DNA from: Nitrosospira sp. Nl5
GTDB lineage: Bacteria; Pseudomonadota; Gammaproteobacteria; Burkholderiales; Nitrosomonadaceae
Assembly: GCF_900102495.1 (NCBI RefSeq)
Contig: NZ_FMVQ01000001.1
Coordinates: forward strand, 372,001 to 436,000
Direction of reading: 5' to 3'
Length of the DNA: 64,000 nucleotides
Under the pieces are notes generated by a model. It saw only the letters and a program-made list of their open reading frames with translations. It was not told where the DNA came from and did no database searches. The position numbers were made by a program, and so were the translations under genes. Each line of letters starts with the position of its first letter. Position 1 is the stretch's first letter. Below are positions 5,704-22,094 of the stretch, in pieces.

Positions 5704-5813
5704 TGAAACTGAAAGGTTTGTTCGATGAAACGCAGGAAACGGCCAAGCGGAAAACTGGTGTCCATGACGCATGGGTAGGCGGGTTTTACGATTTTAACAA
5801 CTTAAAACGTAAA

Positions 5814-5858: not shown

Positions 5859-5885
5859 GGTAACGAAAGCCCAGCTTCGTCTATT

Positions 5886-6314: not shown

Positions 6315-6386
6315 AATGGTATCTCCTTTAAAATCCGATCCATTGACAAAGCAAAAAACAGTTATATTATCCCGATCTTTGGGGGA

Positions 6387-6433
6387 ACTATAAGAGATCG
6401 ACGCTATTTTGTCAACTTTTTTATGTTTAAAGT
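6387..6433 (-). promoter_or_regulatory. Shared-box promoter, copy 1
   Basis: Read on the minus strand: ACTTTAAACATAA, then AAAAA, GTTGACA as the -35 element, 17 bases, and TATAGT as the -10 element. The upstream box and the spacing recur before three other genes (10832-10878, 15508-15554, 21657-21703). The box abuts the -35 element, where a class II activator or an UP-type element would act. Confidence 0.8.
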
Positions 6434-6523
6434 GTCCATATGGTATATAGTGGCATTAGTAACGAGGTGTTCCATAACAATTTCATATAACTAAACCAAT
6501 AGGGAGAACGGAGGGAAAGCCAA

Positions 6524-7183
6524 ATGCTTAATACAATGGGAGAGCGGCAAAGACAGCTGCTTAAGCTGTTGCGTAGGAGCAAGCCGGGCCTGAGTGTGGA
6601 TGAGCTTTCGAAAGGACTTGAAATTACGCGAAACGCAGTGCGGCAACATCTTGCCGCACTGGAAGGGTCGGGATTTGTGCAAGGCGGGGCCATGCGGCCT
6701 TCAGGGGGAGGACGCCCCCAACAGCTTTACGTCATAACCGAGCGTGGCGAAGAAACTTTTCCGCGCCAATACTCGTGGCTTGCGCAGTTAATGGTGTCAT
6801 CGATCCAGCATGAAGAAGGTGCTGAAAATATGGGCAAGCGCCTGAATGAAATCGGGGCTGGCGTTGCACGGCAGATACGCAGCGAGTATCCCGGTTTGAG
6901 GACGCACAAGGAGAAGGTGGAAAAGCTGGCCGAGGTAATGGACCAGCTAGGTTACAACGCTAAAAATACCACCTTGCCGGGGGGCGAGCCGGTAATCGAA
7001 GCCGATAACTGCGTGTTTCACAGGATGGCGGTAAAAGACGTGGAAATTTGCCATCTGGACATGGGGCTGATGGAAACCTTTACCGACAGCAAGGTTGAAC
7101 ACCATGAATGCATGGCCCGTGGCGGCGATGTGTGCAGGTTCAGATTCAAGGAACAAGACGAGCCAAAAGACGAAAGCCGCTAA
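6524..7183 (+). CDS. Winged-helix regulator with C-terminal Cys cluster (SufR/COG2345-like)
   Basis: This 219-residue protein has an N-terminal winged helix (about residues 7-75; recognition helix in TRNAVRQHLAALEGSG, wing in GGGRPQQLYVIT). The C-terminal half carries C163-x2-H166, C176-H177, H193/H194-x-C196 and C204 in the arrangement ARGGDVC. This pattern matches the SufR-like branch, where cysteines hold an Fe-S cluster that senses iron or redox state. It is transcribed away from the coiled-coil lipoprotein gene across a 210-bp region holding the shared-box promoter. Its targets are unknown. Confidence 0.78.
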   Translation: MLNTMGERQRQLLKLLRRSKPGLSVDELSKGLEITRNAVRQHLAALEGSGFVQGGAMRPSGGGRPQQLYVITERGEETFPRQYSWLAQLMVSSIQHEEGAENMGKRLNEIGAGVARQIRSEYPGLRTHKEKVEKLAEVMDQLGYNAKNTTLPGGEPVIEADNCVFHRMAVKDVEICHLDMGLMETFTDSKVEHHECMARGGDVCRFRFKEQDEPKDESR

Positions 7184-7198
7184 TCCGTCAAATCCACT

Positions 7199-7240
7199 AA
7201 ATCCGCTGGTTACGCTAACCGGCGGATTTACGTTTGTTTT
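7199..7240 (+). terminator. Rho-independent terminator after the HTH regulator
   Basis: AAATCCGCTGGTTA pairs with TAACCGGCGGATTT around CGC, followed by ACGTTTGTTTT. It lies 16 bases after the regulator stop and is well placed to end that transcript. Confidence 0.8.
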
Positions 7241-7412
7241 ACCCATCTTGGCCTAGGCTCACATCCGAAGTGTTATAGGCAGGGAATCGAAGGCGCATTC
7301 CCGGTTCGCCTATTCGCACTCACACATCAGTCAGGAACGGGTTGGCGGCGGTGAAGCGATGAGGTTTTTGGGAGACGATAAGTTGCCCTTCGCTTCAACC
7401 ATCCTACCTTGG

Positions 7413-8177
7413 CTACTTTTGCGGCGATAGCAGGGCGGATTCCAGCAGCACATCGACGCCTGTCTCCGAGGCTATTGCGCTTGCAGGAATATTTTCGCCG
7501 GCACGCCACTGCGCCACCGCATCCCGCTTGGATTCTCCGCTAACCAGAAATATTACCTGCCGTGAACGGCTGAGCCGGGCAGCACTCAATGAGACGCGCT
7601 GCGGCGGTGGCTTGGGCGAATCCAGTATCGCCAGCGTGTCGGGTGAGTCGGATTCGGTTCCCCATTCGTGGCCGGGAAACAGACTTGCGGTATGTCCGTC
7701 GTCTCCGAGCCCAAGCAGGGTCAAATCGAAGATGCCGACGTTATTCAAGGTCTGTGCGTATTCGCAAGCCGCCAGATCCGCGCCGAGTTCACCTGGAATC
7801 GTATACAGCTGGTCCGCGGGGATCTGGACATAATCGAGCCAGGCCTCTCCGGCCATGAGGGAGTTGCGCCGCGGATCGGTTGGCGGCACACATCGTTCAT
7901 CGCCGAAATAGATATGCCAGGCCGACCAGTCGGTCTGTACCGCCCGCAGTTTTTTATAGATTGCGCGCGGTGTATCGCCACCGGCGAGTACCAGGTGAAA
8001 CTCTCCGCGTTTCTGGATTGCCGCAGCGGCGCTGGCGAGAATCATGCTCAACGCGATATCGTTCAGCTCAGCCGGATTGGCGACGGAACGCCACCGGCAC
8101 TGATCGGCTTTGGGGGAATTCGCGTTGATGGAATTCATGAGTTTTGAAGAGCCTACATCCATTAGCAATTTGTCCAT
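7413..8177 (-). CDS. pgl: 6-phosphogluconolactonase
   Basis: This enzyme (up to 254 residues) hydrolyses 6-phosphogluconolactone in the oxidative pentose phosphate pathway. Diagnostic segments are LVLAGGDTPRAIY, YFGDERCVPP, NSLMAGEAWLD and LLGLGDDGHTASLFPG. The start is uncertain: ATG 8177 gives the full length, while ATG 8138 removes 13 residues and also leaves the domain intact. No zwf or edd gene is adjacent; the other pathway genes lie at 3672, 22293 and 23347 on the same strand. Confidence 0.93.
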   Translation of the reverse strand: MDKLLMDVGSSKLMNSINANSPKADQCRWRSVANPAELNDIALSMILASAAAAIQKRGEFHLVLAGGDTPRAIYKKLRAVQTDWSAWHIYFGDERCVPPTDPRRNSLMAGEAWLDYVQIPADQLYTIPGELGADLAACEYAQTLNNVGIFDLTLLGLGDDGHTASLFPGHEWGTESDSPDTLAILDSPKPPPQRVSLSAARLSRSRQVIFLVSGESKRDAVAQWRAGENIPASAIASETGVDVLLESALLSPQK

Positions 8178-8225
8178 AAAATGGCCTAGTGGGCTGCCGC
8201 ATTCAGGTTCAAGTCCGGCAGGCCG

Positions 8226-8311
8226 CTAGTGTAGTGAGTCAGAGAACGTTTACATAACCGATTCAAATGAATAAACCGGGAAGTAACGATATCTCTGACT
8301 CACTATACTAG
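8226..8311. repeat. 86-bp MITE-like inverted-repeat element
   Basis: CTAGTGTAGTGAGTCAGAGA at 8226-8245 is the inverse of 8292-8311 with one mismatch. The 46 bases between are AT-rich with no ORF. The right arm supplies the stop codon of the DoxX gene. A related core, CTGACTCACTACACT, recurs at 35768-35782, upstream of the ion channel gene. Confidence 0.65.
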
Positions 8312-8712
8312 TCTGGTCTAATCGCCATTCTACCGCTACCAAGGAATAATATCGCAAGGCCGGAAAATAAATAAAAACCTTGCAATTCGAGTGCCCAGCC
8401 GCCAGTGCCGGTTAACGAAAATAACTGGCTGCGGTGTGCCAGCACCAATGCGAATATCATGTTGCCAAAAACGAGCAAACCGCCAAGGCGTGAAAAAATT
8501 CCCAGGATAATCATGAGCGGTGCAATGACTTCGCCCACGTAGACTCCGTAAGCCAGCGCAGTGGGCAAATTAATGTTCGCAAGTTGTACTTTGATGAAAT
8601 CGAGAGAACCGGGATTGAGTATCTTGAATATTCCGTGGAACAGTATCAGGAAGCCTACCGTAAGGCGCAGGATCAACTTGCCCAAGGCATCATTTTGCAA
8701 TGGATTGCGCAT
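8308..8712 (-). CDS. DoxX-family membrane protein
   Basis: A 134-residue protein with four hydrophobic helices, starting after AGAAGGAACGCGCG. The N-terminal LILRLTVGFLILFHGIFKI and the later YVGEVIAPLMIILGIFSRLGG match the DoxX/SURF4-like family. Such proteins are quinone-linked or redox-associated membrane components, but no specific reaction can be assigned here. Its stop codon lies inside the right arm of the adjacent inverted repeat. Confidence 0.85.
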   Translation of the reverse strand: MRNPLQNDALGKLILRLTVGFLILFHGIFKILNPGSLDFIKVQLANINLPTALAYGVYVGEVIAPLMIILGIFSRLGGLLVFGNMIFALVLAHRSQLFSLTGTGGWALELQGFYLFSGLAILFLGSGRMAIRPD

Positions 8713-9012
8713 CGCGCGTTCCTTCTAAAGTTTAACGATCGAATTCAAGATATAGGGTGAAAAGCGCGACAAACTGCTTAGATAGCTTATCGCCTCCACG
8801 AAGAAGACGACAATCAAAGTATTGGATCCCGGCAAACGTTTAAAGGCTTTATATTTAGTCCCGGACAAACGTCTGTCGGTTCCATTTTTTTCAGATTTTA
8901 ATTCATGGATGAATTTTCATATCCCAGTGCGCGATGAATGTTCGCGTAGATCATCGGAGCGCCAGCAGAAGTTGGAGATTCACGAGGGTTCCTTATACTC
9001 CGTTTTCCGGCT
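8713..9012. other. 300-bp gap without a supported gene
   Basis: This region lies upstream of the DoxX gene and downstream of the ferredoxin-like gene. A 120-codon plus-strand frame here overlaps the ferredoxin gene and has no ribosome site or family signal. I see no repeat or RNA structure that stands out. Confidence 0.5.
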
Positions 9013-9201
9013 TTATCGCTGGCAATGTTCTATTTGCAACGCCCCTGACGGGCACCGGCCAACAACGGACATAATCTCCTCCTCGGTTGCTGCGGATGGG
9101 TTAATAATAAATTTGCCATCCTGTACCTTAAAAACCTCCGGTAGCGAACTAACGCAAACGCCGGCATGGCAACATATATTCTGATCCCAGGTTATTTGCA
9201 T
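9013..9201 (-). CDS. Divergent 4Fe-4S mono-cluster protein
   Basis: This 62-residue protein begins WDQNICCHAGVC and later carries VVGRCPSGALQI and a final EHC. The cysteines at 10, 11, 16, 50 and 60, with H12, fit the divergent single-cluster ferredoxin domain (Fer4_19 type). It follows the DUF4242 gene by 25 bases on the same strand, so the two are probably one transcript under the TetR-family regulator upstream. An electron-transfer or sensor role is inferred. Confidence 0.8.
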   Translation of the reverse strand: MQITWDQNICCHAGVCVSSLPEVFKVQDGKFIINPSAATEEEIMSVVGRCPSGALQIEHCQR

Positions 9202-9226
9202 GGCGGTCCTCTTATTGGCGTGGTAA

Positions 9227-9502
9227 TTAATTTTCGGCGGTGGTCGGGTCGATTACGGATTTAATGCGAGAAATGCGGTTGGCGGGAAAGCCGCCTTGTT
9301 CGGCATGTGCCCTGACAGCGGCTTCATCAGGCGCGATATAGATACAGTAGACTTTATCCTCCGTCACGTAGCTTTCCAGCCACTGGACTTGCGAGCCCAT
9401 GCCGCTCAGGACACCGCATGATTTCCGGGAAATAGCCTGTAGATCCTGGGGAGTCAGTGAGCCGGCCCCGGGAATTTCACGTTCAATAAGATATTTTGGC
9501 AT
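9227..9502 (-). CDS. DUF4242 family protein
   Basis: A 91-residue protein starting after CCAGGAGACAGACA. The beginning MPKYLIEREIPGAG, the W-x-x-SYVTEDKVYCIYIAPDEAAVR core and the GFPANRISRIKSVIDP end are characteristic of DUF4242, small ferredoxin-like-fold proteins of which one is a described nickel-binding protein. The start lies 28 bases downstream of an operator copy that is also found before the TetR-type gene. Confidence 0.85.
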   Translation of the reverse strand: MPKYLIEREIPGAGSLTPQDLQAISRKSCGVLSGMGSQVQWLESYVTEDKVYCIYIAPDEAAVRAHAEQGGFPANRISRIKSVIDPTTAEN

Positions 9503-9529
9503 TGTCTGTCTCCTGGTAAAATTTTAGTA

Positions 9530-9544
9530 TATGACCGGTCGTCT
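9530..9544. promoter_or_regulatory. Putative TetR-type operator, copy 1
   Basis: TATGACCGGTCGTCT occurs here, upstream of the DUF4242 gene, and again identically at 10171-10185 upstream of the regulator gene. The core GACCGGTC is a perfect palindrome. On the minus strand a -10-like TATACT lies just downstream, so a bound repressor would block the promoter. Confidence 0.75.
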
Positions 9545-9563
9545 TATAATAGATGAAAAAAAA

Positions 9564-10160
9564 TCAAGGCTTGAAAAAATCACCCAGTAAATCCTGGCAA
9601 CACTGTTTAACCGGCGCGGATGATTTTTCTATTTTCATCCTTAATAAAGCCCCCTGCCAGGTGTTCAATAGCAGGTCAGCCATTTCTTCAGCTGATTTAT
9701 CCAGTCTTACCGTGCCTTGTTGTTGCGCCTTGGCCAAGCCGGATTTTAATAAATCCCGATAGCGATTAACGGCCGATTGGAGAGATTTTTGGCAGACATC
9801 ACTGGTATCTCCTATTTCTCCCATCAAATTCCCCAGCAGGCAACCACCTTTAAACCTGTTCTTCTCGAGCTCCGCAATGAGCTCATCGAAGTAACGCTGT
9901 ATTCCACCCAGCGCATCCTTATCGGATTGTTGCAAATGGGCGGTTAATTGGGTAATAAATGGATCAATGTAGTGTTGAATGACTTCCGCGCCAAAATTTT
10001 CCTTGCTGCCAAAGTAATTATAAAAAGAACCTTTGGGAATATTCACGGCAGCTAGAACTTGCTGCAACCCGGTGCCATGATAACCCTGCTCCATCAACAT
10101 CGTAACACCCTGGCTTAACAGGCTTTCTCTATTAATCTCTTTTTTGGTTGGCGTGAGCAT
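9564..10160 (-). CDS. TetR/AcrR-family transcriptional regulator
   Basis: About 198 residues from ATG 10160 (MLTPTKKEINRESLL). The N-terminal helix-turn-helix is GLQQVLAAVNIPKGSFYNYFGSKENF, near the family consensus. The C-terminal ligand domain contains KGGCLLGNLMGEIGD and ends with conserved NTWQGALLRMK, like the AcuR/NemR branch that responds to reactive electrophiles. The longer frame to 10199 would run through the operator at 10171-10185 and is not used. Likely autoregulated and controls the DUF4242/ferredoxin pair. Confidence 0.85.
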   Translation of the reverse strand: MLTPTKKEINRESLLSQGVTMLMEQGYHGTGLQQVLAAVNIPKGSFYNYFGSKENFGAEVIQHYIDPFITQLTAHLQQSDKDALGGIQRYFDELIAELEKNRFKGGCLLGNLMGEIGDTSDVCQKSLQSAVNRYRDLLKSGLAKAQQQGTVRLDKSAEEMADLLLNTWQGALLRMKIEKSSAPVKQCCQDLLGDFFKP

Positions 10161-10170
10161 AAGGCAATAA

Positions 10171-10185
10171 TATGACCGGTCGTCT
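10171..10185. promoter_or_regulatory. Putative TetR-type operator, copy 2
   Basis: The same 15 bases as at 9530-9544, TATGACCGGTCGTCT, lie 11 bases upstream of the TetR-type start. Two identical copies flanking the regulator gene indicate autoregulation. Confidence 0.75.
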
Positions 10186-10327
10186 CGAATGTCAAACAAA
10201 AAAAGGAAGGGCGCTGGATCAGACGTCTTGGATTGATAGGAATCAGGAAATCGGGATCAATACGCAATGCAAGCCGGGTTAGCAAAGCATAACCGGCTTG
10301 CCGATACTTCCGATATTATCACGGATA

Positions 10328-10747
10328 TTATTCCGAGCGGGACGCGCCAACGGTAACAAGTTGTTGCGAGTCAGATGCGGCGTGGTCGCTTTGTCCGAGC
10401 CTTGAAGCCATTTGCCGGTGGGCGGCGGCTTCCTTTATGTCTTCATTCACGATTTGTTCGTACTTGCGCAATAACGCTACGGTATGCGATTGCAGATCCT
10501 GTGCTTGCCTGCCATAGAGATAGCTTTTGTTCTCATACTGCTCAAGCAATCCTTTCTGCTCTTCTACTTTTGCCTGTATCTGCCTGGCCTCGTCTTCATA
10601 GAATTTTGCGACAGCTTCGTGATCGCTGCGGGTTACGGCATTCTTGGCAGCGCTAAGGATTTCCGGATTTTCGGTCGCAGTTGCGAGCGGGCTTGCCAGT
10701 AAGCCGATTACGGATAAGACTCCAAAAATATTCTTAGTCTTCATCAT
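10328..10747 (-). CDS. Secreted coiled-coil protein, paralogue 2 of the KSYLYGR family
   Basis: A 139-residue protein with a Sec signal peptide (hydrophobic residues about 7-22, likely cleavage after ATA) and no lipobox. The mature helix includes FYEDEARQIQAKVEEQKGLL, then the family signature KSYLYGRQAQDLQSH, VALLRKYE and KEAAAHRQMAS. It is collinear with the products of 5886-6314 and 14999-15436. Its transcript starts at the shared-box promoter 10832-10878. No catalytic residues are evident; an envelope structural or stress role is inferred. Confidence 0.78.
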   Translation of the reverse strand: MMKTKNIFGVLSVIGLLASPLATATENPEILSAAKNAVTRSDHEAVAKFYEDEARQIQAKVEEQKGLLEQYENKSYLYGRQAQDLQSHTVALLRKYEQIVNEDIKEAAAHRQMASRLGQSDHAASDSQQLVTVGASRSE

Positions 10748-10831
10748 TTATCTCGTGAGGTTATTCTTTAACCCGGATGTCTTTACCCAGGGGCAGATCG
10801 TTTCTTTTCATTTCCAGCTTTCCTGATTCGA

Positions 10832-10878
10832 ATCTTACCCAATTCAAAATACTTTGTCAACTTAATTATGTTTAAACT
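10832..10878 (-). promoter_or_regulatory. Shared-box promoter, copy 2
   Basis: On the minus strand: AGTTTAAACATAA, then TTAA, GTTGACA (-35), 17 bases and TAAGAT (-10). The box differs from copy 1 at very few positions, although the rest of the upstream DNA is unrelated. Confidence 0.8.
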
Positions 10879-11067
10879 ATTTTATATTGCGGAAGTTGAG
10901 GTTTTTTTGCAAAAATAGCGGCAGCGTTGGACTGTAGTGGCGGCAGAGCTAGACCGATGCACTCTACCGTGCCCTGGAAGATATAAAGACGCATCAATTG
11001 TGGTAACAGGAGATGTAATAGAAGGCTTCGAGGAAGTGAGCCAGGTTTTACCGCAAGCGGCGGTTTT

Positions 11068-13851
11068 TCAGGCTGGCCTGGACGGCTTTTGCGCTCCTGG
11101 TTCAGGTTCCACCAGAGACCCCGCTGTCGACGCTTGCGGGATTCGCGGATTTTTGCAACAGCAGCGTTCGATGATCCTGTTCAGCCGACGAACTAATTCG
11201 CGTGCCTCTTTGCAATCGTCGTGGCCGCCGGTTCCATCCTGGCCGTCCGGCCTGCCGGGATAGAAGATGAGCCCTGTGAACTGCCGGAAGCGCGTCACGC
11301 GATTTCCGCCTGGAGAGGTCGCCGACACTTCGGTGGAGAATGTATAGGGGCCTACGAGAGGCGTATCGGTAAAGTTTCCACGGTATTCTCCATTTGCGCC
11401 GGGATCGAGCACCAGCGTGCGCAGGACATTGTCGGGCCTGATGACCTGGACCTCCGGCGGCGTGTTGAGCTTGATCGGCTGGCCGTATACGGTTGGCTCC
11501 AAAACCACTGTCATGGTAGAGCCGGGCGCGTAGCTGGATTGAACGAGGTACCCTCCCAAGTGCAGATCGCTGCGCGACTTGCACATCACCGAGTAGTAAA
11601 AAGGTTCGCCACCGCTTGCCGAACCGGCCGCCGTCCCAACTGTCGGCCGTTGCCTGGCGAAATTTTCCACCCACACCCGCCAGCGTCCGATATGCGCTGT
11701 CGGCCGGTCAGGGAAGGCGGGAAATACCCAGCGGAAGAACATGTGGGACTTCCCGGCGACGAAATCGACATTGGGTAGCGCTCCCGCATCGTTCGGGGTG
11801 ACAATTGTGCCGTCCGGCGCTTCCAGCCAGACGCGTATGTACTTGGGATACACGAACGTCCGCCGGAAGACGACGATGAAATCCGCTGCCACGTCGACTT
11901 CGCCCAGGTACACTTTTGTTGCCCGTTTCTGGCCAGGAAGCACGATGCCCAGCGGGTCTTTGACAAAAGCCTCGTCGCTGACATCGCTGAGAATCTGGAC
12001 ATAGAGTTTCTGCAACAAAAACTCCTTGTAACCAACCAGCTCACCGGTGATGTGGGCAACGCCATTGGTCACGCTTGCGATCTGCACGAGTTTGTCTTCG
12101 AGCTGATTCAGCCCCAGCCCCACCGCGAACACGCGTTGTTTCGGCATCTTGGTTGAGACTGTAGCCGTTGCTTCGGGAATATCCGGCGGCGTGTTCTGAA
12201 TACCGTCGGTCAAGACAATCAGGGCACGGCTGTCGGCGACCGCTCCATCCAGTACATCGCTGCCCAGTAGAATGCCCGCGCCGATCGAGGTATTGCCGGA
12301 TGGATTAAGATTGGCCGGAGTCAGGATATTGGTAGCGTTATCGCGCCCCATCCCATCACCCTGCGCGCCGGCGACTTCCATATCCAGCAGGATGTCTCCC
12401 GGATCATTGGCAACGTTATTAAAGCGCACCACGCCTATACGATCGTTATCCTTGATAAGCGCGGCATAAAGCTTGCCCGCCTCGATGGCGAGGTCGACTT
12501 TTCGCTGGCCCGGAACGCCGGTCGGTTCGCCCATGCTGCCCGACCTGTCAAAGACCAGTACGGTATCGATGGGCATCGGTGGTATCGCTTGCGCCAGCAG
12601 ATCCACTGTCTCCAGGGGATTTGCGGGGTCGTCAGGCGTTGTGACCTGAAGGCTGCCGGGGAAGCTTGGCCCGCCCACATCGGTCGAAGTGAAGGCGATG
12701 AAGATTCGCCGCGCGGTGTAGGGCTCGTTGACGGGCGCGGGGAGTGTGAAACTCAGGTCCGTGTCGGGAATATAATTGAACTGTCCGGTGATGGCCGAGA
12801 GGTTGACACGCAGGGTGCCAGGAAAACCGACGCGATTATTGCGCACTTCGAAAAAGCGATGCATCGTCAGGCCGTGGACGACCTGGCCGAAATCCAGCAG
12901 CAGCGATCCGTTGCCGGTAACAACTTCCATGCGCGGAGTGGGCGAGATAAATTCGGCGAGCCTGTCCGCGATTCCCTGAATGCAGACTCCGCAGAAGGGT
13001 TCTTTCGACACGCGCATCCGGCAAAGATAAGCGGGCCGGTAAAGCCCGCAATGGTAATAGCCGGCCCCCTCGAATAAGCCGATCTGGAAATCGCTGTCCA
13101 GGACGTTTGGGCTCTCGTCTTCCGCCGTACAGTCCGGATTTTGCATGGTGGGGATCGGCACCTCGGGTGCCACCATTTCCGTCCAGAGCAGCTTGACCGG
13201 ATGGCCGGTAGCGGCGAGGTCGGCGAGGGTGGTGGCCGCTGTTATGTTTGGCTTGAACGGTTCGCCTGCCGGCGCGTTGTTTCCCTCGCCATAAGGATAT
13301 TCATCGGCCAGGCTGAAAGCCGCGTGACCAAATTCGTGCAGGGCGATGTCGGTCCAGCTTTCGCCGGAACTGGCGCCCAAACCAGTGGCAAAAATCCGGT
13401 CTCCGGAAGACGCGCAGCCGCCGCGCTTGGGCGTATTGACAATGACTGCGCCGGCATACCACACCGGGACATTGGCAGTAAGCGTTGTTTTCACCAGCAA
13501 AAAATCGGGTGCGAGGCACCGGTGGATATCGCTGGTGCAGAAAGTGGCGTCGAAGTAAGTGTCGGCGACGGTCCCGTCCCCGGCCTGGTCGGGACAGTCA
13601 GCCGGATCATCTGCGCCCACATCGGTTGATGTGACGTTGAGCTTCCAGACATTGATTGCTCCGCCGACAGCCGGATACCACGGCTCAGCCTCCAGTGCGG
13701 CGACGAATTCATCGCACAAATTATCGAACTCGGTTTGCTGCGGGCCAGCCTGAAAACCCTCCGCTACCAGCACGATATTCATGCGCTGGTCGTCAGGCCC
13801 GTTATCGAGGATCTTTGACGAACCGAGGACCATGCCGTCATTGATGCCCAT
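11068..13851 (-). CDS. M64-type metallopeptidase fused to a von Willebrand factor A domain
   Basis: This 927-residue protein starts after AAAGGAGGCGAAC. Residues about 20-310 form an IgA-peptidase M64-like domain with the zinc motif HEFGH (172-176) followed by ADEYPYGEG. About 310-425 is a beta-rich linker of the kind seen in extracellular anchor modules. About 428-620 is a vWA domain with an intact MIDAS (DRSGS, 435-439) and VLTDGIQN. The last 300 residues hold further beta-sandwich-like sequence and a Cys-rich end (RCCCKNP). There is no obvious signal peptide. It is co-transcribed with, and overlaps by 14 bases, the companion gene upstream. Confidence 0.8.
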   Translation of the reverse strand: MGINDGMVLGSSKILDNGPDDQRMNIVLVAEGFQAGPQQTEFDNLCDEFVAALEAEPWYPAVGGAINVWKLNVTSTDVGADDPADCPDQAGDGTVADTYFDATFCTSDIHRCLAPDFLLVKTTLTANVPVWYAGAVIVNTPKRGGCASSGDRIFATGLGASSGESWTDIALHEFGHAAFSLADEYPYGEGNNAPAGEPFKPNITAATTLADLAATGHPVKLLWTEMVAPEVPIPTMQNPDCTAEDESPNVLDSDFQIGLFEGAGYYHCGLYRPAYLCRMRVSKEPFCGVCIQGIADRLAEFISPTPRMEVVTGNGSLLLDFGQVVHGLTMHRFFEVRNNRVGFPGTLRVNLSAITGQFNYIPDTDLSFTLPAPVNEPYTARRIFIAFTSTDVGGPSFPGSLQVTTPDDPANPLETVDLLAQAIPPMPIDTVLVFDRSGSMGEPTGVPGQRKVDLAIEAGKLYAALIKDNDRIGVVRFNNVANDPGDILLDMEVAGAQGDGMGRDNATNILTPANLNPSGNTSIGAGILLGSDVLDGAVADSRALIVLTDGIQNTPPDIPEATATVSTKMPKQRVFAVGLGLNQLEDKLVQIASVTNGVAHITGELVGYKEFLLQKLYVQILSDVSDEAFVKDPLGIVLPGQKRATKVYLGEVDVAADFIVVFRRTFVYPKYIRVWLEAPDGTIVTPNDAGALPNVDFVAGKSHMFFRWVFPAFPDRPTAHIGRWRVWVENFARQRPTVGTAAGSASGGEPFYYSVMCKSRSDLHLGGYLVQSSYAPGSTMTVVLEPTVYGQPIKLNTPPEVQVIRPDNVLRTLVLDPGANGEYRGNFTDTPLVGPYTFSTEVSATSPGGNRVTRFRQFTGLIFYPGRPDGQDGTGGHDDCKEARELVRRLNRIIERCCCKNPRIPQASTAGSLVEPEPGAQKPSRPA

Positions 13852-14353: not shown

Positions 14354-14582
14354 GTTTTGTTCTCCCTATCGCTGTGGGGCTGTGGAAATTGGTCACTGGA
14401 ATCGCCTGGTTCCTTCCATTTATAGTTCAAAAAACAGAAAAGGAAAGAATTTTGCGTTTTAAATGACCTCTTCCGCCAGCAGCTGCGTGTGGGCTTTGTG
14501 CCGGGCTCTCGACGAACGTACGGAATAGCGTACTATCATGACGGTGATGAGACTTGCCTGGAGGTAATCATGACTGTCTGGC

Positions 14583-14816
14583 ATGACAGCAAGTGAAGCC
14601 CGCGCCAATCTGTATCGGCCGATTGATGCTGCTGCGTCCTCACATCAGCCGCTGGCTATCTCGGGCAGGTGAAATCGAGCTGTTCTTATTGCTGAAGAGG
14701 AGTGGGCTGCGATACAGGAAACGTTGTCTCTCCTGTCAGTCCCCGGTATACGTGAGTCGATTCGGGACGACCTGGACACCCCCGTGGATGCATTCATGGA
14801 GGAACCGGGCTGGTGA
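14583..14816 (+). pseudogene. YefM/Phd-type antitoxin interrupted by a nonsense codon
   Basis: ATG 14583 begins MTASEARANLYRPIDAAASS, the hallmark start of YefM/Phd antitoxins, and continues HQPLAISGR before an in-frame TGA. The same frame then resumes NRAVLIAEEEWAAIQETL and ends IRDDLDTPVDAFMEEPGW. A single change of the stop (CGA to TGA is the simplest) explains it. The DNA-binding half would still be made as a short peptide. The decayed toxin follows with a GTGA overlap. Confidence 0.82.
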
Positions 14817-14917
14817 ATTGGCCGCTTGTATACACTAGGCAGGCGCAAAACAATGCCAAAAAGCTGGCTGCATCGGATTTGAAACTGAAAGCGCTTCTGA
14901 CAGGGTGCTTAGAATGA
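14813..14917 (+). pseudogene. Truncated RelE/YoeB-type toxin remnant
   Basis: GTG 14813 overlaps the antitoxin stop and opens VNWPLVYTRQAQNNAKKLAASDLKLKALL, which resembles the N-terminal helix of RelE/YoeB-family mRNA interferases ('W-lvyTrqAqkdakKl-asgLk-k---Ll'). The frame then ends at TGA 14915-14917, well short of the family's usual length of about 85-100 residues, so all catalytic residues are missing. Confidence 0.7.
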
Positions 14918-14998
14918 GTCCGCCAGGGGGAGAAGGGCGGATATGCGCAACAGGACGTAACGATCAGGTAACGAATCATTGCCGTCGAACTACTTTCT

Positions 14999-15436
14999 TC
15001 AGCTCGACTTGCCGCTATTCTCTTTAATCTTCGAAGCCATCTGCCGATGCAAAGCGGCTTCTTTCAGGTTTGCCTTTGCGGCTTCCTCGTACTTGCGGAC
15101 CAGGGCGTCGGCGTGGGCTTGCAGATCCTGGGCCCGTCTGCCATAAAGATAGCTTTTATCTTCGTAATGCGCCAATAGCTGTTTTTGTTCCTGAATCTTT
15201 GCCTGTAATTCCTTGGCTACATCTTCGTAGTGTTTGGCCACGGCCTCATGCATCTTGCTCGACTCATCTTCATAGGATTTGACCACGGCCTTGGGATCGC
15301 TTTGCGGCGCAGCATTCCCGGAAGCGGGACGAGTATCGGGGGCTTCAGCGGTCCCGGCCGCGATCGAGAACGCACTCCACCCTGCAAGCAAGCAGAACAA
15401 CGGCAAGCTGACAATTGTATTTCGCGCTTTCATCAT
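14999..15436 (-). CDS. Secreted coiled-coil protein, paralogue 3 of the KSYLYGR family
   Basis: A 145-residue protein with a Sec signal peptide (about residues 5-27, ending SIAAG) and a Pro/Ala-rich linker. The mature region has two copies of a Y-E-D motif (VVKSYEDESSKMHEA, VAKHYEDVAKELQA), suggesting a small internal duplication, then KSYLYGRRAQDLQAH, ALVRKYEEA and KEAALHRQMAS. It shares the promoter box at 15508-15554. Both terminal tails differ from the other paralogues, as expected for a divergent family. Confidence 0.78.
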   Translation of the reverse strand: MMKARNTIVSLPLFCLLAGWSAFSIAAGTAEAPDTRPASGNAAPQSDPKAVVKSYEDESSKMHEAVAKHYEDVAKELQAKIQEQKQLLAHYEDKSYLYGRRAQDLQAHADALVRKYEEAAKANLKEAALHRQMASKIKENSGKSS

Positions 15437-15507
15437 CGGACTTTTTTATTCACTGGTATTCTTAATGGAGCTATACGTTCTCAAGCGTGGGAATTACACG
15501 TAGATGA

Positions 15508-15554
15508 ACAATACCGAAACTCCGAGACATTGTCAACGTTATTATGTTTAAAGT
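15508..15554 (-). promoter_or_regulatory. Shared-box promoter, copy 3
   Basis: On the minus strand: ACTTTAAACATAA, then TAAC, GTTGACA (-35), 17 bases and TATTGT (-10). The box and spacing are the same as in copies 1, 2 and 4. Confidence 0.8.
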
Positions 15555-15618
15555 AGAGGAGAGAAAGTGTGACAGCGTAACTCCACGGTATTCATTAGCA
15601 GTTCGGGAAAACGCTGTT

Positions 15619-16653
15619 CTATTTTTGTCCCGCCTTATTGAGCAAGCTATCACCGCTAAAACGTTCGCTCGACAGCACGGTGTTACGCAGCAGGCGCGAT
15701 TGCTCGGTCGCGACACGCGCATGCTCAAGAAATACCGCCGCGGCCTTATTCTCTCCTTCCTTGGCGAAATCCTTGCCTGTCTGCTCAAGCAGCATGGCGG
15801 CTTCTTCCAGGCTGCGCATCGCCGCCCAGTAACTTTCATCTATTTTTTCCATTACGCCGGAAAGCAGCGCGCTGGTGGAATAGGCGTGCCCGGTGTGACA
15901 GCGGAACCGGTTAAGCCTCCCTTCGTTTAGCTTTACCAATACGCCCTGGCACTCCGGGCAGGTAAAAGGAGTGAGAGGTCCGACATCCATGATGCCTTTC
16001 TCAAACGCGTCGCCATCCACAGCGACGCTGACTTCGATCCCCATTTTTCGCCTGTCGTTCGCCACGTCATATGTTGGCTCTTTCAACGCTTGCTGCGTAA
16101 GATGTTTCAACAGCGCGCCCATTTGATGGACCGACACGCAGTGGTCGATTTCAACCTGGCTGAGCGCACTTGACGGCATTGAATCAAAGGAGGCTTCAGT
16201 AGGGTCTTGGGTAATCGTGATTCCGTTCATGCGCTTGATACTCCACAAACCGGAGGTACCATCATCCAGTGCCCCGGAAAGAACGATACCAATGACTCGA
16301 GAGCCATGAGAATAGGCGGCGGAGCGAAATAGTGCGTCGACAGATGGCCGGTTGCGATTTTCCTTGGGGCCCCTGGTTACGAGAACACGGTTGGCCTCGA
16401 TCAGCAAGTGGTGATCGGGCGCGGCGACATAGATTCGCCCCCGCTCGATCTCATCCCCATCCGCCGGATGTACTGCCTTTAGCGGCCCCTTTTTACACAG
16501 GATCTCCGGCAAGGTACTCACGAAATTTGCAGGAATGTGCAAGACCACAAAAATTGCCGCATCCAAATCGGCAGGCAATGATGCAACCAGGGCAGACAGG
16601 CTTTCCACTCCGCCGGCTGATGCACCTATGGTTACAATGCGTGCTGGCAACAT
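15619..16653 (-). CDS. Orphan CheB-type methylesterase with C-terminal zinc-ribbon-like motif
   Basis: This 344-residue protein starts at ATG 16653 after GCGAGGAG; the upstream extension to 16752 has no family similarity. The CheB catalytic residues are present: S12 in GASAGG, H39 in VVLHIPANF and D130/D131 in SGALDDGTSG. There is no receiver domain. The C-terminal extension contains C232-x2-C235 and C252-H-T-G-H256, a zinc-ribbon-like set typical of stand-alone CheB homologues, then a helical tail. No che genes are nearby, so a role outside chemotaxis is likely. Confidence 0.87.
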   Translation of the reverse strand: MLPARIVTIGASAGGVESLSALVASLPADLDAAIFVVLHIPANFVSTLPEILCKKGPLKAVHPADGDEIERGRIYVAAPDHHLLIEANRVLVTRGPKENRNRPSVDALFRSAAYSHGSRVIGIVLSGALDDGTSGLWSIKRMNGITITQDPTEASFDSMPSSALSQVEIDHCVSVHQMGALLKHLTQQALKEPTYDVANDRRKMGIEVSVAVDGDAFEKGIMDVGPLTPFTCPECQGVLVKLNEGRLNRFRCHTGHAYSTSALLSGVMEKIDESYWAAMRSLEEAAMLLEQTGKDFAKEGENKAAAVFLEHARVATEQSRLLRNTVLSSERFSGDSLLNKAGQK

Positions 16654-16936
16654 ATTCTTAGTCTCCTCGCTGAAAGTAATAGAGATGAGAAGGGATAAGA
16701 ACTCTTCGCCTGAATCCAGCCATTGAAAATGCCGCTTTTTAAGGGATTGCACGCAAGTATAACAAGGATGAGATAGGGTCGGACGTGCAGAACTTCATTA
16801 AATTACTAGCCGCTATGAGGAGCGAGGTAGTCTCTACATCCGGAGGATGGCTTGAGGCTCTGCATCAAGTGGAAGGAGCGCATTGGGCTCACGTGCGCCG
16901 CAATGAATCAGCTTTTTAACATTCTGCTACCAGGAG

Positions 16937-17833
16937 TTACACCTCCCGTTTTGAGAATTCAACCCGGTTGCGGCCTGCTCTTTTTGCCCGGTAAAGCGCC
17001 TCATCAGCGGCGGCGATGAGCATGCCGGCGTCCTCGCCAGTCCGGTTGCCACCGACCGCGACACCCAGGCTGGCGGTCATGGGAATCACTCCTGACTGGC
17101 AGTCGACAGGCCCTGCGCTGATGGAATCACGAATTCGTTCGGCCAGGGCCATCGCTTCACTTAACGTGCACCCCGGCGCCGTGACGAGGAATTCCTCGCC
17201 GCCGTAACGCCCGATCCGGTCGTAAGGACGCAGCGCCAGGCGCATGCGGCGCGCTGCCTCTTGCAATACCGCGTCGCCCGTGGGATGTCCATGCGTATCA
17301 TTGACCCGCTTGAAGTGATCGAGGTCGGCCAGTACAACGCCAACGCGGCTGCTTTCGCGCGCCGCCCGTCCCAGCTCCCTTTCCAGGCAGTCCATGATTG
17401 CGGCACGATTCCATACGCCGGTGAGGCGGTCGTGCGTCGCCTGCACATGCAGCTTCTTGTGCAGGGCAAGTATTCGTTCGGCGACCCGTAGCCGGGCTGC
17501 CAGCTGCTCTTCATCGAAAGGCTTGGTGATGAAATCGTCGGCACCCGCGTCCATGCCTTCGAGATAGCTGCCCTTGCTGTCCAGTGCGGTAAGAAGAATG
17601 ATATACGTATATTGCAGGCTGGGTTCGGCACGGATCATCCTGCATAACTCCAGTCCATCGATATCCGGCATCATCCAGTCAGAGATAAGCAGGGAGTGCC
17701 CGTCTTGTTTCCATGCATCCCAAGCCTTCTGCCCGTTCTCCACCGCCGTTACCGCGTATCCGAGTTTCCTGAGGGTTGCGCCGAACAGAAGGCGCGAGGT
17801 GGTATCATCTTCCGCGATCAGTATCTTCATCAC
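16937..17833 (-). CDS. Response regulator with GGDEF diguanylate cyclase domain
   Basis: A 298-residue protein. Residues 1-125 are a receiver domain with D9/D10 and the phosphorylation site D52 (LLISDWMMPD). Residues about 130-295 are a GGDEF domain with GGEEF at 211-215 and an RxxD product-inhibition site at 202-205. It should make cyclic di-GMP on phosphorylation and be feedback-inhibited. It overlaps the hybrid kinase gene by four bases, so the kinase is the probable phosphodonor. Confidence 0.93.
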   Translation of the reverse strand: MMKILIAEDDTTSRLLFGATLRKLGYAVTAVENGQKAWDAWKQDGHSLLISDWMMPDIDGLELCRMIRAEPSLQYTYIILLTALDSKGSYLEGMDAGADDFITKPFDEEQLAARLRVAERILALHKKLHVQATHDRLTGVWNRAAIMDCLERELGRAARESSRVGVVLADLDHFKRVNDTHGHPTGDAVLQEAARRMRLALRPYDRIGRYGGEEFLVTAPGCTLSEAMALAERIRDSISAGPVDCQSGVIPMTASLGVAVGGNRTGEDAGMLIAAADEALYRAKRAGRNRVEFSKREV

Positions 17834-20800
17834 AGGGCCTTGCCTGATAACGGTTCGGGCTGCATATCGAGCGCGGCAATTTCGACCTTCACCCGTTCAA
17901 ATTCGCCTTCAATCTGTTTTATCAGCGCAGCAGCTTCCGTCACGCTGCGAGTTTTATCGAGAGCCTCCAGTTGCTGGGCAATATCGGCCAAATGCTGCGC
18001 GCCCACGCTGCCACAAGCTCCTCTGAAGGCGTGGGCTGTCTTGCCCAGGAGCCCGGCATCCCCCTCACTCGCAGCATTCCGCAAAACAACAATGCGTTCG
18101 GCGCCCTCCTTCAGGAAAGTCGCAAATATCCGGCTCATCAAGGTCGGTTCTGCGGTCTCTTTTCCCAGTGTTCGTAAACGTGCAACGACTTCGGCGTTTA
18201 GCGAAGATGAAACTTTGGGAAGAAATGAAGAGATCGGAGTTAAAGGGGCGACCAGGCTCTCAACGGCAGCGTCGTTCTCATTCCTGGTGCGATACTGTTG
18301 TGCCTCGCTCTTCCGCTCCCCTCGTACTGCAGGCGTCCATTTTTTCAGGGTGGCCGCAAAGTCTTCCTGTTTAACCGGCTTGCTGATGTAATCATCCATT
18401 CCGGCAAGCAGGCAGTACTCCTTATCTCCTTGCATCGCTTGCGCCGTTACCGCAACGATTGGAAGCGGGGATTTGTTGCCAGTCCGGCGGCGAATTGCAG
18501 CAGTGGCCTCGAAGCCGTCCATTTCGGGCATCTCGCAATCCATGAACACGATATCGTAGGAGGCCGTTTCGGTCCTTTGCACGGCTTCCCGGCCGTTGGT
18601 GGCGACATCAACGTCGCAGCCCAGATTTCGCAGCATTGTCGCCCCGACAATTTGATTGGTCATGTTATCCTCCGCAAGCAGCACGCGTATACCGGAAAAC
18701 GGCGGACCTGTAAGGTCACTTGTATGTGCCCCATGGGCTCCTGGAAGGAGTTGATGATCGCTGATAAGATCGATGGGCCGGCGATTGCAGTAGGCTTCCC
18801 ACACATGTACCAGGGTCGACAACAGTTCCGATTGGCGCGCCGGTTTGACCAGATAGGCGGCAAAACCGATACTCTTTAGCCGGTCCCTGATATCGCCCTG
18901 TTGTCCCAGCGAACTTAACATCACTAACTGGATATCGTGAAGCAAAGGATCCGTTTTGATGGCCTGGCCCAGCATTTCTCCATCCATGTCAGGCATTTGA
19001 TAATCGAGGATCGCAATCTGATACGGGTCGCCGGCGGCCTGAGCAGCACGTAACGCCCGGAGCGCTTCGGCTGCTGATATGGAAGTTCCGATGCGCATCT
19101 TCCAGACGCGGATCTGCTCTTGCAATACCAGGCGGTTAACTGCGTTATCGTCCACGATCAGCACGCGAACACGTGCCAGTTCCGTGTGCGACCTCACCTC
19201 AACCGGCTGTTTCCCCTGCAGCGGCAAGCGGAGGGTAAACCAGAACGTCGATCCGGCCCCTACACGGCTTTTCGCAGCGATGGTCCCCCCCATCAATTTC
19301 ACCAATTGCTTGCTGATGGCCAAGCCCAAGCCGGTGCCTCCGTAGCGGCGGGTGGTGGAGGTATCGGCCTGCGTGAACTTATTGAAGAGATCTCCCAATT
19401 TAGCTTCCGCGATCCCCAGGCCGCTATCCTCGACACTGATGCGAACCGTGACCTCGTCTTCGGAGACAGAATCAGATTCGACATTGATAAGCACATGGCC
19501 CTTATCAGTGAACTTGATGGCATTGTTCGTCAAATTCGTCAGTATTTGACGAATACGCCCCAAGTCACCGATTACATTGCGTGGCACGTCGGGAAGGTAG
19601 CGTACGATGACATTCACGTCTTTCTTCCTCGTTGGCTGCATGGCGATCATGCCGGCTACATCTTCAACAGCCTGGAGCAGGTCAAATGGAATAGGCGCAA
19701 TAACCAGCTTACCAGCCTCGATTTTAGAGAAATCAAGGATGTCGTTAATGATGGTGAGCAGTGTCTCCCCGCTTGCGCGCGCCAATCCTGCCAATTCGCG
19801 CTGAGAAGCAGTTAACGGAGTATTCAAAAGCAGGCCGACAGTGCCGAGCACGCCATTCATGGGGGTGCGAATCTCATGGCTCATATTTGCCAGAAACTCG
19901 CTCTTGGCCCTACTGGCAGCCTCGGCCGATTTACGCGCCTTGTGCAGTTCCGTTTCGATACTCTTCCTTGCCGTAATATCCTGGCCGGAAAAATAGAATT
20001 CACGCACTTCCTGCACGGCAGTTATATTCCATAAAATCCAGCGGGAAGAGCCGTCCTTGCAGCACATCGGGGTTTCAAAGGAAACGGGAATGCCCATGAT
20101 CAGCTTGTCCAATTCCGCCGCGGTCTCCGCGCGGGACCCGGACATCACGAAGTCCAGGAACGGTCGAGACAGCAACTCCTCTTGCGTGAAGCCGAAAACG
20201 GTTTTCCATGCCGGGTTCAAGCGCTTGAAGCAGCCGCCGAAATCCGAGATGGCAAGAAAATTGAGAGACTCGTTAAAGTAGCGGTCGCGTTCCGTCTGGG
20301 CGGCAGTAAAGGCACGGGCAAGATTACTTATCTCGTCGTCCGAATCGATCTCGAATTGAAAGGCACGATCGGTTGTTCCGCTGTTCCGGGTCGCATCTTC
20401 GAGTTGCACCAGTTTTTGTACCTTTCGCCACACGATATGGGACGAAAGAACGAGCCAGGCTACGAGAAGGGCAAGCGTGAGGAAGACACCGAAAATATAG
20501 AGCTGAGTGCGGTGTTGTGCGGCCGCAACTGCCTCGAACGTGCGCGCGTCGAACAATTCGTGGAATTTGTTTACCTGTTGCATGATCTCGGCTTTCGCGA
20601 GGTGATAGCTCTCGTCATACATAATGCGGTGCGCCAGTTCTGGGTCGGGGGTATCTTTCACGCCGAATTGGCCTGTCGAGTCCGGACGCAGCCCTTTCAT
20701 CGCATTAAACGCCTTGTATTCGGACTGGACCAGGCGGTTGGAATTATTTTCGGCTTCCTGAAGTTTTGCAAATTCCGCCGCAGTGAATCCGAGTCCCTTC

Positions 20801-21171
20801 ATTTGCTCCTGTAAAGAAATCTTCTGTCCGCTTGATCTTGGCTGGAAATCCGTATCGCCGGCCATGAGATCCCAGTAACTGCGCTCATAGTGCAGCGGTC
20901 GCTCCTTTTCGCCGTTACGGATTGCAAGTATTTCCCAATAAAAACGCTCGAACTTCGGGTCCCCGGTGGCAACATAAGTACGCGCCATGCGCGTCAGATC
21001 ATCGGAAGACTGGCGCAGCTCGTCGGCAACGAGGAACGACGCAAAGCGGACGTCCTGGACGTGATTCAATTCCCGCTGCCCCAAGAAGCGGAGCACGCTG
21101 AAAAGAACAAGCAGGGAGAGAAGCACTCCGGTCACGAGATAAAAGATGTTACTTAACCTCCGGATTGTCAC
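17830..21171 (-). CDS. Hybrid sensor histidine kinase (HisKA-HATPase-REC-REC-HPt)
   Basis: A 1113-residue inner-membrane kinase. There are membrane spans at about 9-29 and 224-245 with a helical periplasmic sensor between them; a HAMP-like linker, a PAS domain (about 295-405), HisKA with H432 (NMSHEIRTP), HATPase (about 540-650; NLTNNAIKFTD, GTGLGLAISK), receiver 1 (about 668-790, D723), receiver 2 (about 828-945, D878) and HPt with H1047 (TAHAFRGACGS). All phosphorelay residues are intact. It lies immediately upstream of the diguanylate cyclase regulator, which it probably controls. Confidence 0.93.
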   Translation of the reverse strand: MTIRRLSNIFYLVTGVLLSLLVLFSVLRFLGQRELNHVQDVRFASFLVADELRQSSDDLTRMARTYVATGDPKFERFYWEILAIRNGEKERPLHYERSYWDLMAGDTDFQPRSSGQKISLQEQMKGLGFTAAEFAKLQEAENNSNRLVQSEYKAFNAMKGLRPDSTGQFGVKDTPDPELAHRIMYDESYHLAKAEIMQQVNKFHELFDARTFEAVAAAQHRTQLYIFGVFLTLALLVAWLVLSSHIVWRKVQKLVQLEDATRNSGTTDRAFQFEIDSDDEISNLARAFTAAQTERDRYFNESLNFLAISDFGGCFKRLNPAWKTVFGFTQEELLSRPFLDFVMSGSRAETAAELDKLIMGIPVSFETPMCCKDGSSRWILWNITAVQEVREFYFSGQDITARKSIETELHKARKSAEAASRAKSEFLANMSHEIRTPMNGVLGTVGLLLNTPLTASQRELAGLARASGETLLTIINDILDFSKIEAGKLVIAPIPFDLLQAVEDVAGMIAMQPTRKKDVNVIVRYLPDVPRNVIGDLGRIRQILTNLTNNAIKFTDKGHVLINVESDSVSEDEVTVRISVEDSGLGIAEAKLGDLFNKFTQADTSTTRRYGGTGLGLAISKQLVKLMGGTIAAKSRVGAGSTFWFTLRLPLQGKQPVEVRSHTELARVRVLIVDDNAVNRLVLQEQIRVWKMRIGTSISAAEALRALRAAQAAGDPYQIAILDYQMPDMDGEMLGQAIKTDPLLHDIQLVMLSSLGQQGDIRDRLKSIGFAAYLVKPARQSELLSTLVHVWEAYCNRRPIDLISDHQLLPGAHGAHTSDLTGPPFSGIRVLLAEDNMTNQIVGATMLRNLGCDVDVATNGREAVQRTETASYDIVFMDCEMPEMDGFEATAAIRRRTGNKSPLPIVAVTAQAMQGDKEYCLLAGMDDYISKPVKQEDFAATLKKWTPAVRGERKSEAQQYRTRNENDAAVESLVAPLTPISSFLPKVSSSLNAEVVARLRTLGKETAEPTLMSRIFATFLKEGAERIVVLRNAASEGDAGLLGKTAHAFRGACGSVGAQHLADIAQQLEALDKTRSVTEAAALIKQIEGEFERVKVEIAALDMQPEPLSGKAL

Positions 21172-21656
21172 GATCTCTCCGGCGGCACGCGCCGCACTGC
21201 GCCGAAAGCTCCAGGACGAACGATATTTGCTCCCGTCGCTGCGCCAAACGGAGCATTATTCGCTACTGTGCTTTGGATTTGGGCCAATGCGGCTGGCGCG
21301 AGTACGTATTGTTTGGGTCTGCGGTGGCTCATATTCTTTATTTACGAAGATGTAAAGGCTTTGCAGGCCTTACCCGTAAAGGTATGGCTGTGGTAAGCCG
21401 TGCTCAAGCGGATCTGGCTGATGGCAGGCCTGGTAGATGCTTCGCCCGCCCCGTCGCCAGACCTAAATCCGCCTGCTCTGATCAACCATTAGATAACGGA
21501 GAGCTGTTCCTGGATAGCTGTAACATCTTACAGGGGGGTTGCGATACCTTTTAACCGGCATATTTCAAAGGAGGTGGGGTTTTTATATGGCGCGATGCGC
21601 TTCGCTTATTGACGCCCTACAACCGGCCCGGCGCCGTTGCAATTCACACTTAATAC
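21172..21656. other. 485-bp gap without a supported gene
   Basis: The region upstream of the kinase gene holds short frames with no ribosome site or family signal. Near its right end, 21589-21620, is one copy of a dispersed 32-bp repeat that recurs at 49645-49676. Confidence 0.5.
21589..21620. repeat. Dispersed 32-bp repeat, copy 1
   Basis: GGCGCGATGCGCTTCGCTTA continues with TTGACGCCCTAC. The copy at 49645-49676 differs at two positions. Both are in intergenic DNA. The inner GCGCTTCGC is suggestive of a REP fragment. Confidence 0.6.
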
Positions 21657-21703
21657 ACTTTAAACATAAATAAGTTGACAAAGTATTTTTCCCCCGGTAG
21701 GAT
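21657..21703 (+). promoter_or_regulatory. Shared-box promoter, copy 4
   Basis: On the plus strand: ACTTTAAACATAA, then ATAA, GTTGACA (-35, ending at 21680), 17 bases and TAGGAT (-10, 21698-21703). The start codon of the downstream gene is 53 bases beyond the -10 element. Confidence 0.8.
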
Positions 21704-21755: not shown

Positions 21756-22094
21756 ATGATGGGAACGAAAAATAGCTTTGCGGCTTTACCCGTATTCTTT
21801 TCACTGGCGTTAGGTATTGCGTTTCCCAGTTCAGGCGCGGCCGCTGAGAAGGACTATCCTTTGTGCACCGTAGGCGGTTACTTTTCCGGATCGGGCGACA
21901 AGTTTTTGAGCGAATTAGCGAAAAATATCGCACAAAAGCGGAATATTTTTGGCGACCCCATATGCAACGCCGCCTGGAAGAATGGATACAAAACCGGTGA
22001 AAACTTTTCGAAAACGGGAAAACCTAAAAACCAGGCGGAAAAATTCGTCTCTCAGCAGGCCGCTGAATTCAGGGCACAGGTGGTTAATCCGTAG
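21756..22094 (+). CDS. Small secreted protein under the shared-box promoter
   Basis: A 112-residue protein starting at ATG 21756 after GCGAAAGGAC. It has a signal peptide (hydrophobic about 8-25, cleavage near GAAAE) and a mature part with two cysteines (YPLCTVGGYFSGSGDKF, GDPICNAAWKNGYKTG) likely to form a disulphide in the periplasm. The rest is charged and helical. It is not a member of the KSYLYGR family but shares the promoter box with those three genes. Function is unknown. Confidence 0.75.
   Translation: MMGTKNSFAALPVFFSLALGIAFPSSGAAAEKDYPLCTVGGYFSGSGDKFLSELAKNIAQKRNIFGDPICNAAWKNGYKTGENFSKTGKPKNQAEKFVSQQAAEFRAQVVNP

Follow-up and report, generated by a model that had tools for sequence, protein, structure and literature searches.

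The closest described relatives of the system considered here are the SufR proteins, which, in the available excerpts of the literature, act as repressors, regulate themselves and are often encoded divergently from their targets (PMC8593673; PMC13421787; PMC6034842). Iron shortage and oxidative stress are given as their signals (PMC13421787), and the excerpted text of PMC8593673 knows them only from cyanobacteria and some actinobacteria. Three cysteines, C203, C216 and C244, are required in Rv1460, the SufR of Mycobacterium tuberculosis (PMC6034842), and the cyanobacterial cysteines are printed as C-X12-C-X13-C-X14-C in one source (PMC8593673) and as C164/C171/C206 in another (PMC13421787). 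Here we analysed a stretch of 64,000 nucleotides from the ammonia oxidiser Nitrosospira sp. Nl5 (contig NZ_FMVQ01000001.1, positions 372,001 to 436,000; hereafter the window), in which four promoters carry the same box, TTTAAACATAA, upstream of their -35 elements. Three of the genes belong to one family, termed A1, and the fourth, P1, is unrelated. An earlier reading of the bare letters (the sequence-only reading) had seen in them a putative small regulon and called its regulator unknown; we find a strong candidate, a SufR-like gene whose start is 92 bases away from the first box and which points away from it. We argue that the box is very likely the operator of this gene, and we put the probability of the operator, regulon and regulator assignments, together with repression, at roughly 0.7.

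All four sites in the window read exactly TTTAAACATAA-N4-GTTGACA-N17-TAnnnT. The pattern TTTAAACATAANNNNGTTGACA-N17-TANNNT has four exact matches in the window, with 0.00 expected from 100 dinucleotide-preserving shuffles, and the 22-base core, with up to three mismatches, finds only the same four (expected 0.02). The short box alone, allowed two mismatches, is unremarkable (seven window matches, nine expected); thus, exactness and joint spacing carry the signal. The shared promoter architecture that the sequence-only reading described is borne out, as is its claim that spacing and orientation exceed chance, an origin that we rejected since none of the 100 shuffles reproduced the pattern; the gene starts it listed (6314, 10747, 15436 and 21756) fit as well. 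The "four or five" A/T-rich bases it placed after the box are always four, followed by G, being all A/T in three sites and TAAC in the fourth. Its term "unlinked" is loose, as the four sites lie within 15.3 kb, although they do not form one operon and a fifth lies on another contig. Indeed, the exact core occurs five times in the 3.03 Mb genome (34 contigs) and never in the reversed control; the fifth copy, on contig C23, stands upstream of another A1 member, so that four of the five cores precede A1 genes and the remaining one P1. With the site model described below, six sites are found in this genome at an expectation value (E) of at most 1e-3, upstream of five A1 genes and P1. From box to -10, the 45 bases of the five exact sites are 67-82% identical in pairs (shuffled, 51-54%), while the next 150 bases in the upstream direction, at 50-56% (shuffled, 51-53%), and the untranslated 5' regions, at 39-53% (shuffled, 38-50%), are at or near the shuffled level, so that the flanking DNA is unrelated, as had been claimed. 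This comparison indicates that the element is conserved by selection rather than by recent copying. Two weaker matches in the same genome were also considered: one with two mismatches (C17:22237, L006) has no -35 element, is absent from the nine model matches and was discarded, and one with three mismatches (C17:11840) is a real site, a TTATAAC variant between a second copy of the regulator and an A1 gene.

Beyond this genome, we scanned 23 Nitrosospira/Nitrosovibrio genomes, all treated as one genus of ammonia oxidisers, and 102 other genomes of the family. The 22-mer with at most two mismatches is present in 22 of the 23 and in 13 of the 102; outside the genus there is one match per genome (two in G087), always with two mismatches except for one with a single mismatch in G025, and in those genera the reversed control also matches occasionally. 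From 44 training sites, picked after excluding L006 and L008-L020 (other-genus matches, one intragenic), one (L089:4069) was dropped from the alignment, and the resulting sequence-only model of 43 sites, whose training sites match by construction, was run on at most 150 candidates per genome. It recovers 93 sites (E ≤ 1e-3) in 22 of the 23 genomes. By translation of the downstream DNA, 77 precede A1 genes, one an A1 remnant and three P1; 27 of the 77 assignments come from the A1 profile matches listed (144 rows of the genus kept), and the 77 include five rows tagged as possible remnants that we counted as A1 given their long open frames and split profile matches (E 1e-32 to 1e-43). Among the matches listed, 65 of the 93 sites lie 59-204 nucleotides upstream of an A1 match. 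Seven sites adjoin the regulator and no recognisable A1 gene, and altogether 88 of the 93 go with A1, P1 or the regulator, which is far from the random placement that would have spoken against the proposal; the putative regulon is supported by the motif, which stands upstream of members of one gene family in 22 of 23 genomes. TAnnnT follows the -35 at exactly 17 bases in 76 of the 93 sites, even though the first search pattern did not include a -10, in keeping with a sigma-70-type promoter (TTGACA, about 17 base pairs, TAnnnT).

The aligned sites also extend the earlier description, since the box proves to be the left half of a longer dyad. The arms of the wider consensus, GA[CT]ACTTTAAACATAAaaaaGTTGACAAAGT[AG]TC, form an outer inverted repeat around the -35 and stand 18 bases apart, giving an imperfect dyad GAYACTTT-N18-AAAGTRTC of about 34 base pairs with an inner ACAT-N7-TTG; the symmetry scan places the best centre at 11.5 in this genus and in the second genus treated below. 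Might such an element need no dedicated regulator, acting as an UP-like sequence or having hitch-hiked with duplicated genes? It is AT-rich, abuts the -35 and is mostly carried by paralogues. Nonetheless, box positions 6-7 are C and A at all 93 sites and position 8 is T at 90, the flanks and leaders in the Nl5 genome have diverged to about the shuffled level, the unrelated P1 gene carries the box too and sites persist beside the regulator where A1 is missing, all of which makes this account highly improbable. A second possibility is that the SufR-like protein reads the element as an activator, bound upstream of and over the -35 and recruiting RNA polymerase. Class II activators sit just upstream of the -35, a position that the element fills with its best conserved half; yet conservation runs through and beyond the -35 (AAAGT), the promoter already possesses TTGACA and a 17-base-pair spacer, and the described SufR homologues repress. 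We regard activation as unlikely. Because the two arms of the dyad surround the -35 of a near-consensus promoter, and the described SufR proteins are repressors, we infer that the regulator, if it does bind here, is quite likely a repressor.

The candidate regulator combines an N-terminal DeoR-type helix-turn-helix (HTH_11, E 8.4e-10, residues 8-51, above cutoff) with a C-terminal domain whose matches to ATC_hydrolase (8.1e-5), MetOD1 (3.2e-4) and V4R (0.002) are weak and below the Pfam gathering scores. Its cysteines C163, C176, C196 and C204 are invariant in 33 copies of the genus and eight of the second genus, the first, second and fourth being spaced C-X12-C-X27-C. The gene is present in exactly the 22 genomes of the genus that have the box, and both are missing from G112, a genome with five A1 matches. 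A model site (E ≤ 0.1) lies 77-157 nucleotides upstream of 28 of the 33 copies, always in divergent orientation, and by direct reading the box stands beside 22 of 22 first copies with 13-17 of its 17 consensus positions. Eleven genomes possess a second copy, which forms one clade (support 98/99); a TTATAAC variant of the box is read directly beside eight of these 11, and among the 93 model sites TTATAAC is found at six of six beside the second copy and at none of the 87 elsewhere. Around the gene, homologues of the 6-phosphogluconolactonase-, DoxX-, 6-phosphogluconate dehydrogenase-, transaldolase- and lactonase-like genes of the window (3672-8712 and 22293-24510) recur near regulator and A1 genes in many relatives, their names being mostly assigned by eye.

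Conserved gene order of this kind means that the adjacency of site and regulator is partly inherited, and inheritance could by itself explain it if another protein read the box, with the SufR-like gene a mere neighbour. One candidate for that reader is the product of the TetR-type gene next to A1 gene 2 (9564-10199); alternatively, it may be encoded elsewhere. The TetR gene accompanies A1 genes in G000, G096, G100, G103 and G109; however, it has no match in eight box-bearing genomes and is present in the box-less G112, a distribution by which we ruled it out. Another reader in general fits poorly with an operator that accompanies the SufR-like gene in the second genus without an adjoining A1 gene, and again at the second locus with a matching variant, so that we consider it improbable.

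We take this second, large genus of the same family to be Nitrosomonas. Regulator homologues 32-39% identical to that of the first genus were found at E ≤ 1e-10 in 37 of its genomes (partial only in G010, G081 and G083), and the regulator found no match in two of the family's four genera. Upstream regions were taken from 33 of the 34 genomes with a full-length regulator, giving 34 loci (L197 and L243 share a genome; G039 was left out). In all 34, A[GC]TTTTGACATATTTATATTGCAAAAGT lies upstream of the regulator in the register of the Nitrosospira box; this reading is pattern-based, and a pattern-free repeat with the matrix of the first genus returned the same element as best match in 33 of 33 distinct regions, on the same strand and in the same register to the -35, each exceeding the 95th percentile of shuffles. 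A TATAGT-like -10 stands one base further out than in the first genus, its positions 1, 2, 4 and 6 being T, A, A and T in 33, 34, 33 and 34 of the 34 loci. With the spacer fixed at 18 bases, at least nine of the ten arm bases are matched in 27 of 34 loci and in 21 of 1020 shuffles. A model of the element in this genus (32 training sites, L239 and L243 with a repeated site being left out of the 34 rows; strict filters on weak matches) finds sites in 34 of 125 genomes, precisely the set that has a full-length regulator match, with a single site in each apart from a weak second match in G068. Between the genera, the helix-turn-helix is the best conserved region of the regulator (57% versus 21-44% elsewhere; eight homologues). 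No A1 gene was found in the eight loci of this genus with longer flanks; since the element is nonetheless the same, the comparison indicates that the two genera have regulator and operator in common, not the A1 target. In the Pfam-checked loci L198 and L202, the regulator diverges from a small membrane-like gene followed by a gene for a DUF2231 membrane protein, perhaps the original target.

The assignment of the operator therefore draws on the specificity of the sites, their adjacency to the regulator and persistence there without A1, the co-variation of TTATAAC with the second copy, the element of the second genus, the conserved helix-turn-helix region, the identical distribution over 22 of 23 genomes and the parallel with SufR, for which repression, self-regulation and a frequent divergent arrangement are described. 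Several observations weigh the other way. Co-occurrence within the genus depends on G112, a single lineage; five of the 33 regulator copies lack a model site at E ≤ 0.1; and of the second copies two show only a degenerate element and one, near a contig end, none. Five of the 93 sites are unexplained, nine of the 14 A1 copies in the Nl5 genome lack a box at E ≤ 1e-3 (five carry one), and the P1 family, matched in 21 of 23 genomes, has the box at three genes only. The dyad of the first genus is imperfect enough for centres 11.5 and 10.5 to score alike (0.143 and 0.137). The regulator itself aligns with TIGR02702 over residues 12-204 at 54.3 bits, short of the curated cutoff of 178.8, and its operator is not that of SufR, as detailed below.

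Under the repressor model, a dimer of the regulator would bind the dyad of about 34 base pairs, cover the -35 of an otherwise strong sigma-70-type promoter and so block RNA polymerase. Because the same site occupies the intergenic region shared with the divergent target, the regulator probably also controls its own gene, as judged from position. If the operator is correctly assigned, an iron-sulfur ligand on the regulator is reasonably probable: loss or change of a cluster at C-X12-C-X27-C would release the DNA, and the dispersed box-bearing A1 genes and P1 would be switched on together. The signal may be iron shortage or oxidative stress, as for SufR; nitric oxide is our guess for an ammonia oxidiser.

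Table 1. Putative operators, promoter elements and genes in the window
Feature	Position	Strand	Remarks
Putative operator 1 (dyad arms included), promoter of A1 gene 5886-6314	6403..6436	-	-35 TTGACA 6410-6415; -10 TATAGT 6387-6392; model E 1.6e-12
Putative operator 2	10848..10881	-	-35 10855-10860; -10 TAAGAT 10832-10837; model E 9.1e-11
Putative operator 3	15524..15557	-	-35 15531-15536; -10 TATTGT 15508-15513; model E 1.0e-9
Putative operator 4	21654..21687	+	-35 21675-21680; -10 TAGGAT 21698-21703; model E 1.2e-11
Box to -10 spans	6387-6431 (-), 10832-10876 (-), 15508-15552 (-), 21659-21703 (+)		exact pattern match
SufR-like regulator, 219 residues	6524..7183	+	divergent from operator 1; C163, C176, C196, C204
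A1 gene 1, 142 residues, lipoprotein-like start	5886..6314	-	family profile and pairwise comparison
A1 gene 2, 139 residues	10328..10747	-	family comparison, structure model
A1 gene 3, 145 residues	14999..15436	-	family comparison
P1 gene, 112 residues, signal-like start, unrelated to A1	21756..22094	+	

A1 proteins have about 140 residues, and relative to A1 gene 1 the products of gene 2, gene 3 and the C23 member are 54%, 49% and 51% identical, so that the single family proposed for three of the four genes (49-54% identity) stands; that they and the fourth are secreted was a judgement of signal- or lipoprotein-like N-termini by eye, and we consider secretion of A1 and P1 products probable on the same grounds. 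At E ≤ 1e-6, A1 has 14 matches in the Nl5 genome, 3 to 24 per genome of the genus and others in two further genera of the family; relatives also occur in the methanotrophs Methylobacter and Methylomonas as well as in ammonia oxidisers (L098, L101, L108, L110-L113, L120). No Pfam or NCBIfam model matches A1 above cutoff, and the best PDB sequence match has an E of 0.28. The structure model, built on an alignment of 52 of 55 rows (L075, L078 and L091 left out), is a hairpin of two long helices (mean pLDDT 83.8); none of its 259 Foldseek matches reaches E ≤ 0.001, and the best of them, to two-helix proteins of the Esx type at E of about 0.7, were dismissed as meaningless. Directly upstream of A1 gene 2, the window encodes a large protein (11068-13851, -) in which peptidase M64 and von Willebrand factor A domains are recognised.

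As for P1, its first 75 coding bases are 53-60% identical to those of A1 genes (shuffled, 50-51%), a weak resemblance that is no more than suggestive of a captured A1 leader. P1 homologues at G107:C113 and G109:C200 adjoin an A1 gene in back-to-back orientation, both genes having a box of their own, and several A1 genes have short P1-like matches downstream. Other A1 copies have a different element, AAGGGTTTCCCTTA-N4-16-GGGTTTCCCC, which occurs at 24 places in 18 of the 23 genomes (e.g. G000:C21:216106-216140 (-); L277-L280) and lies 64-86 nucleotides upstream of such copies in 19 of the 24 matches, with none in the reversed control; by eye, a degenerate ACTT..CATA..GTTG box often abuts it. 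The A1 family thus seems split between two promoter types. A box subtype with TTGACG for TTGACA (G098:C28:33030, G110:C6:641055, G114:C2:641753, G113:C25:49614 and G094:C1:3013583) precedes A1 genes of greater length, in which the profile match falls into two overlapping pieces, as though part of the protein were repeated, and a box-like ACTTTCTACTTAACTAAATTCACA precedes A1 genes in L072, with similar sequences in L070 and L074. The strong sites with no intact A1, P1 or regulator adjoining are G108:C32:106264, G108:C51:968, G104:C16:14899, G110:C6:1292174 and G102:C8:20636; both in G108 lie 212-245 nucleotides upstream of a small membrane-like gene, whereas that in G102 precedes, by eye, an apparently broken A1 start.

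How, then, does this regulator relate to those already described? With SufR (TIGR02702; cyanobacteria, Rv1460 and Streptomyces avermitilis) it shares the N-terminal helix-turn-helix and a site in the divergent intergenic region (28 of 33 copies here, 34 of 34 loci in the second genus). Its C-X12-C-X27-C reproduces the exact spacing of C203, C216 and C244 in Rv1460, as given in the excerpted source, whereas the cyanobacterial spacings, as printed, differ. The SufR operator is CAAC-N6-GTTG, unlike GAYACTTT-N18-AAAGTRTC, and the AAC-N8-GTT inside our element also departs from its spacing. SufR controls suf genes, whereas here the targets are A1 and P1, and no suf-type gene was seen beside the sites of the Nl5 genome, although suf genes were not searched for separately. 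The hosts are betaproteobacteria, in contrast to the cyanobacteria and some actinobacteria from which the excerpted literature knows SufR. Because the protein departs from SufR in curated score, operator and target set, each of which was tried, we do not file it as SufR; "SufR-like" denotes homology and ligand spacing. One-component regulators of the V4R type, for example MsvR of methanogens, likewise join a helix-turn-helix to a cysteine-bearing C-terminal domain; the cysteine spacing of our regulator instead fits Rv1460 exactly. At the level of titles, the open-licence literature yielded none on a regulon or motif of this kind in Nitrosospira. What would be new here is a regulator of SufR type that has a different operator and an enlarged set of secreted-protein targets. 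Overall, we suggest, at about even odds, that a SufR-derived iron-sulfur sensor of redox state or nitric oxide acquired a new operator in ammonia oxidisers, controls only its own divergent promoter in Nitrosomonas, and in Nitrosospira took over an expanded, dispersed family of secreted helical proteins, its second copy evolving an operator variant of its own, to yield a surface-protein stress regulon separate from iron-sulfur assembly. With a candidate regulator, operator and likely signal named, when nitrifiers make A1 proteins becomes testable. If the proposal is true, a SufR-type sensor has moved from iron-sulfur assembly genes to another target set, and these genera offer a natural series for the growth of a local regulator into a regulon: a single site in each genome of one genus, several sites per genome in the next, and a second regulator copy that has an operator variant to itself.

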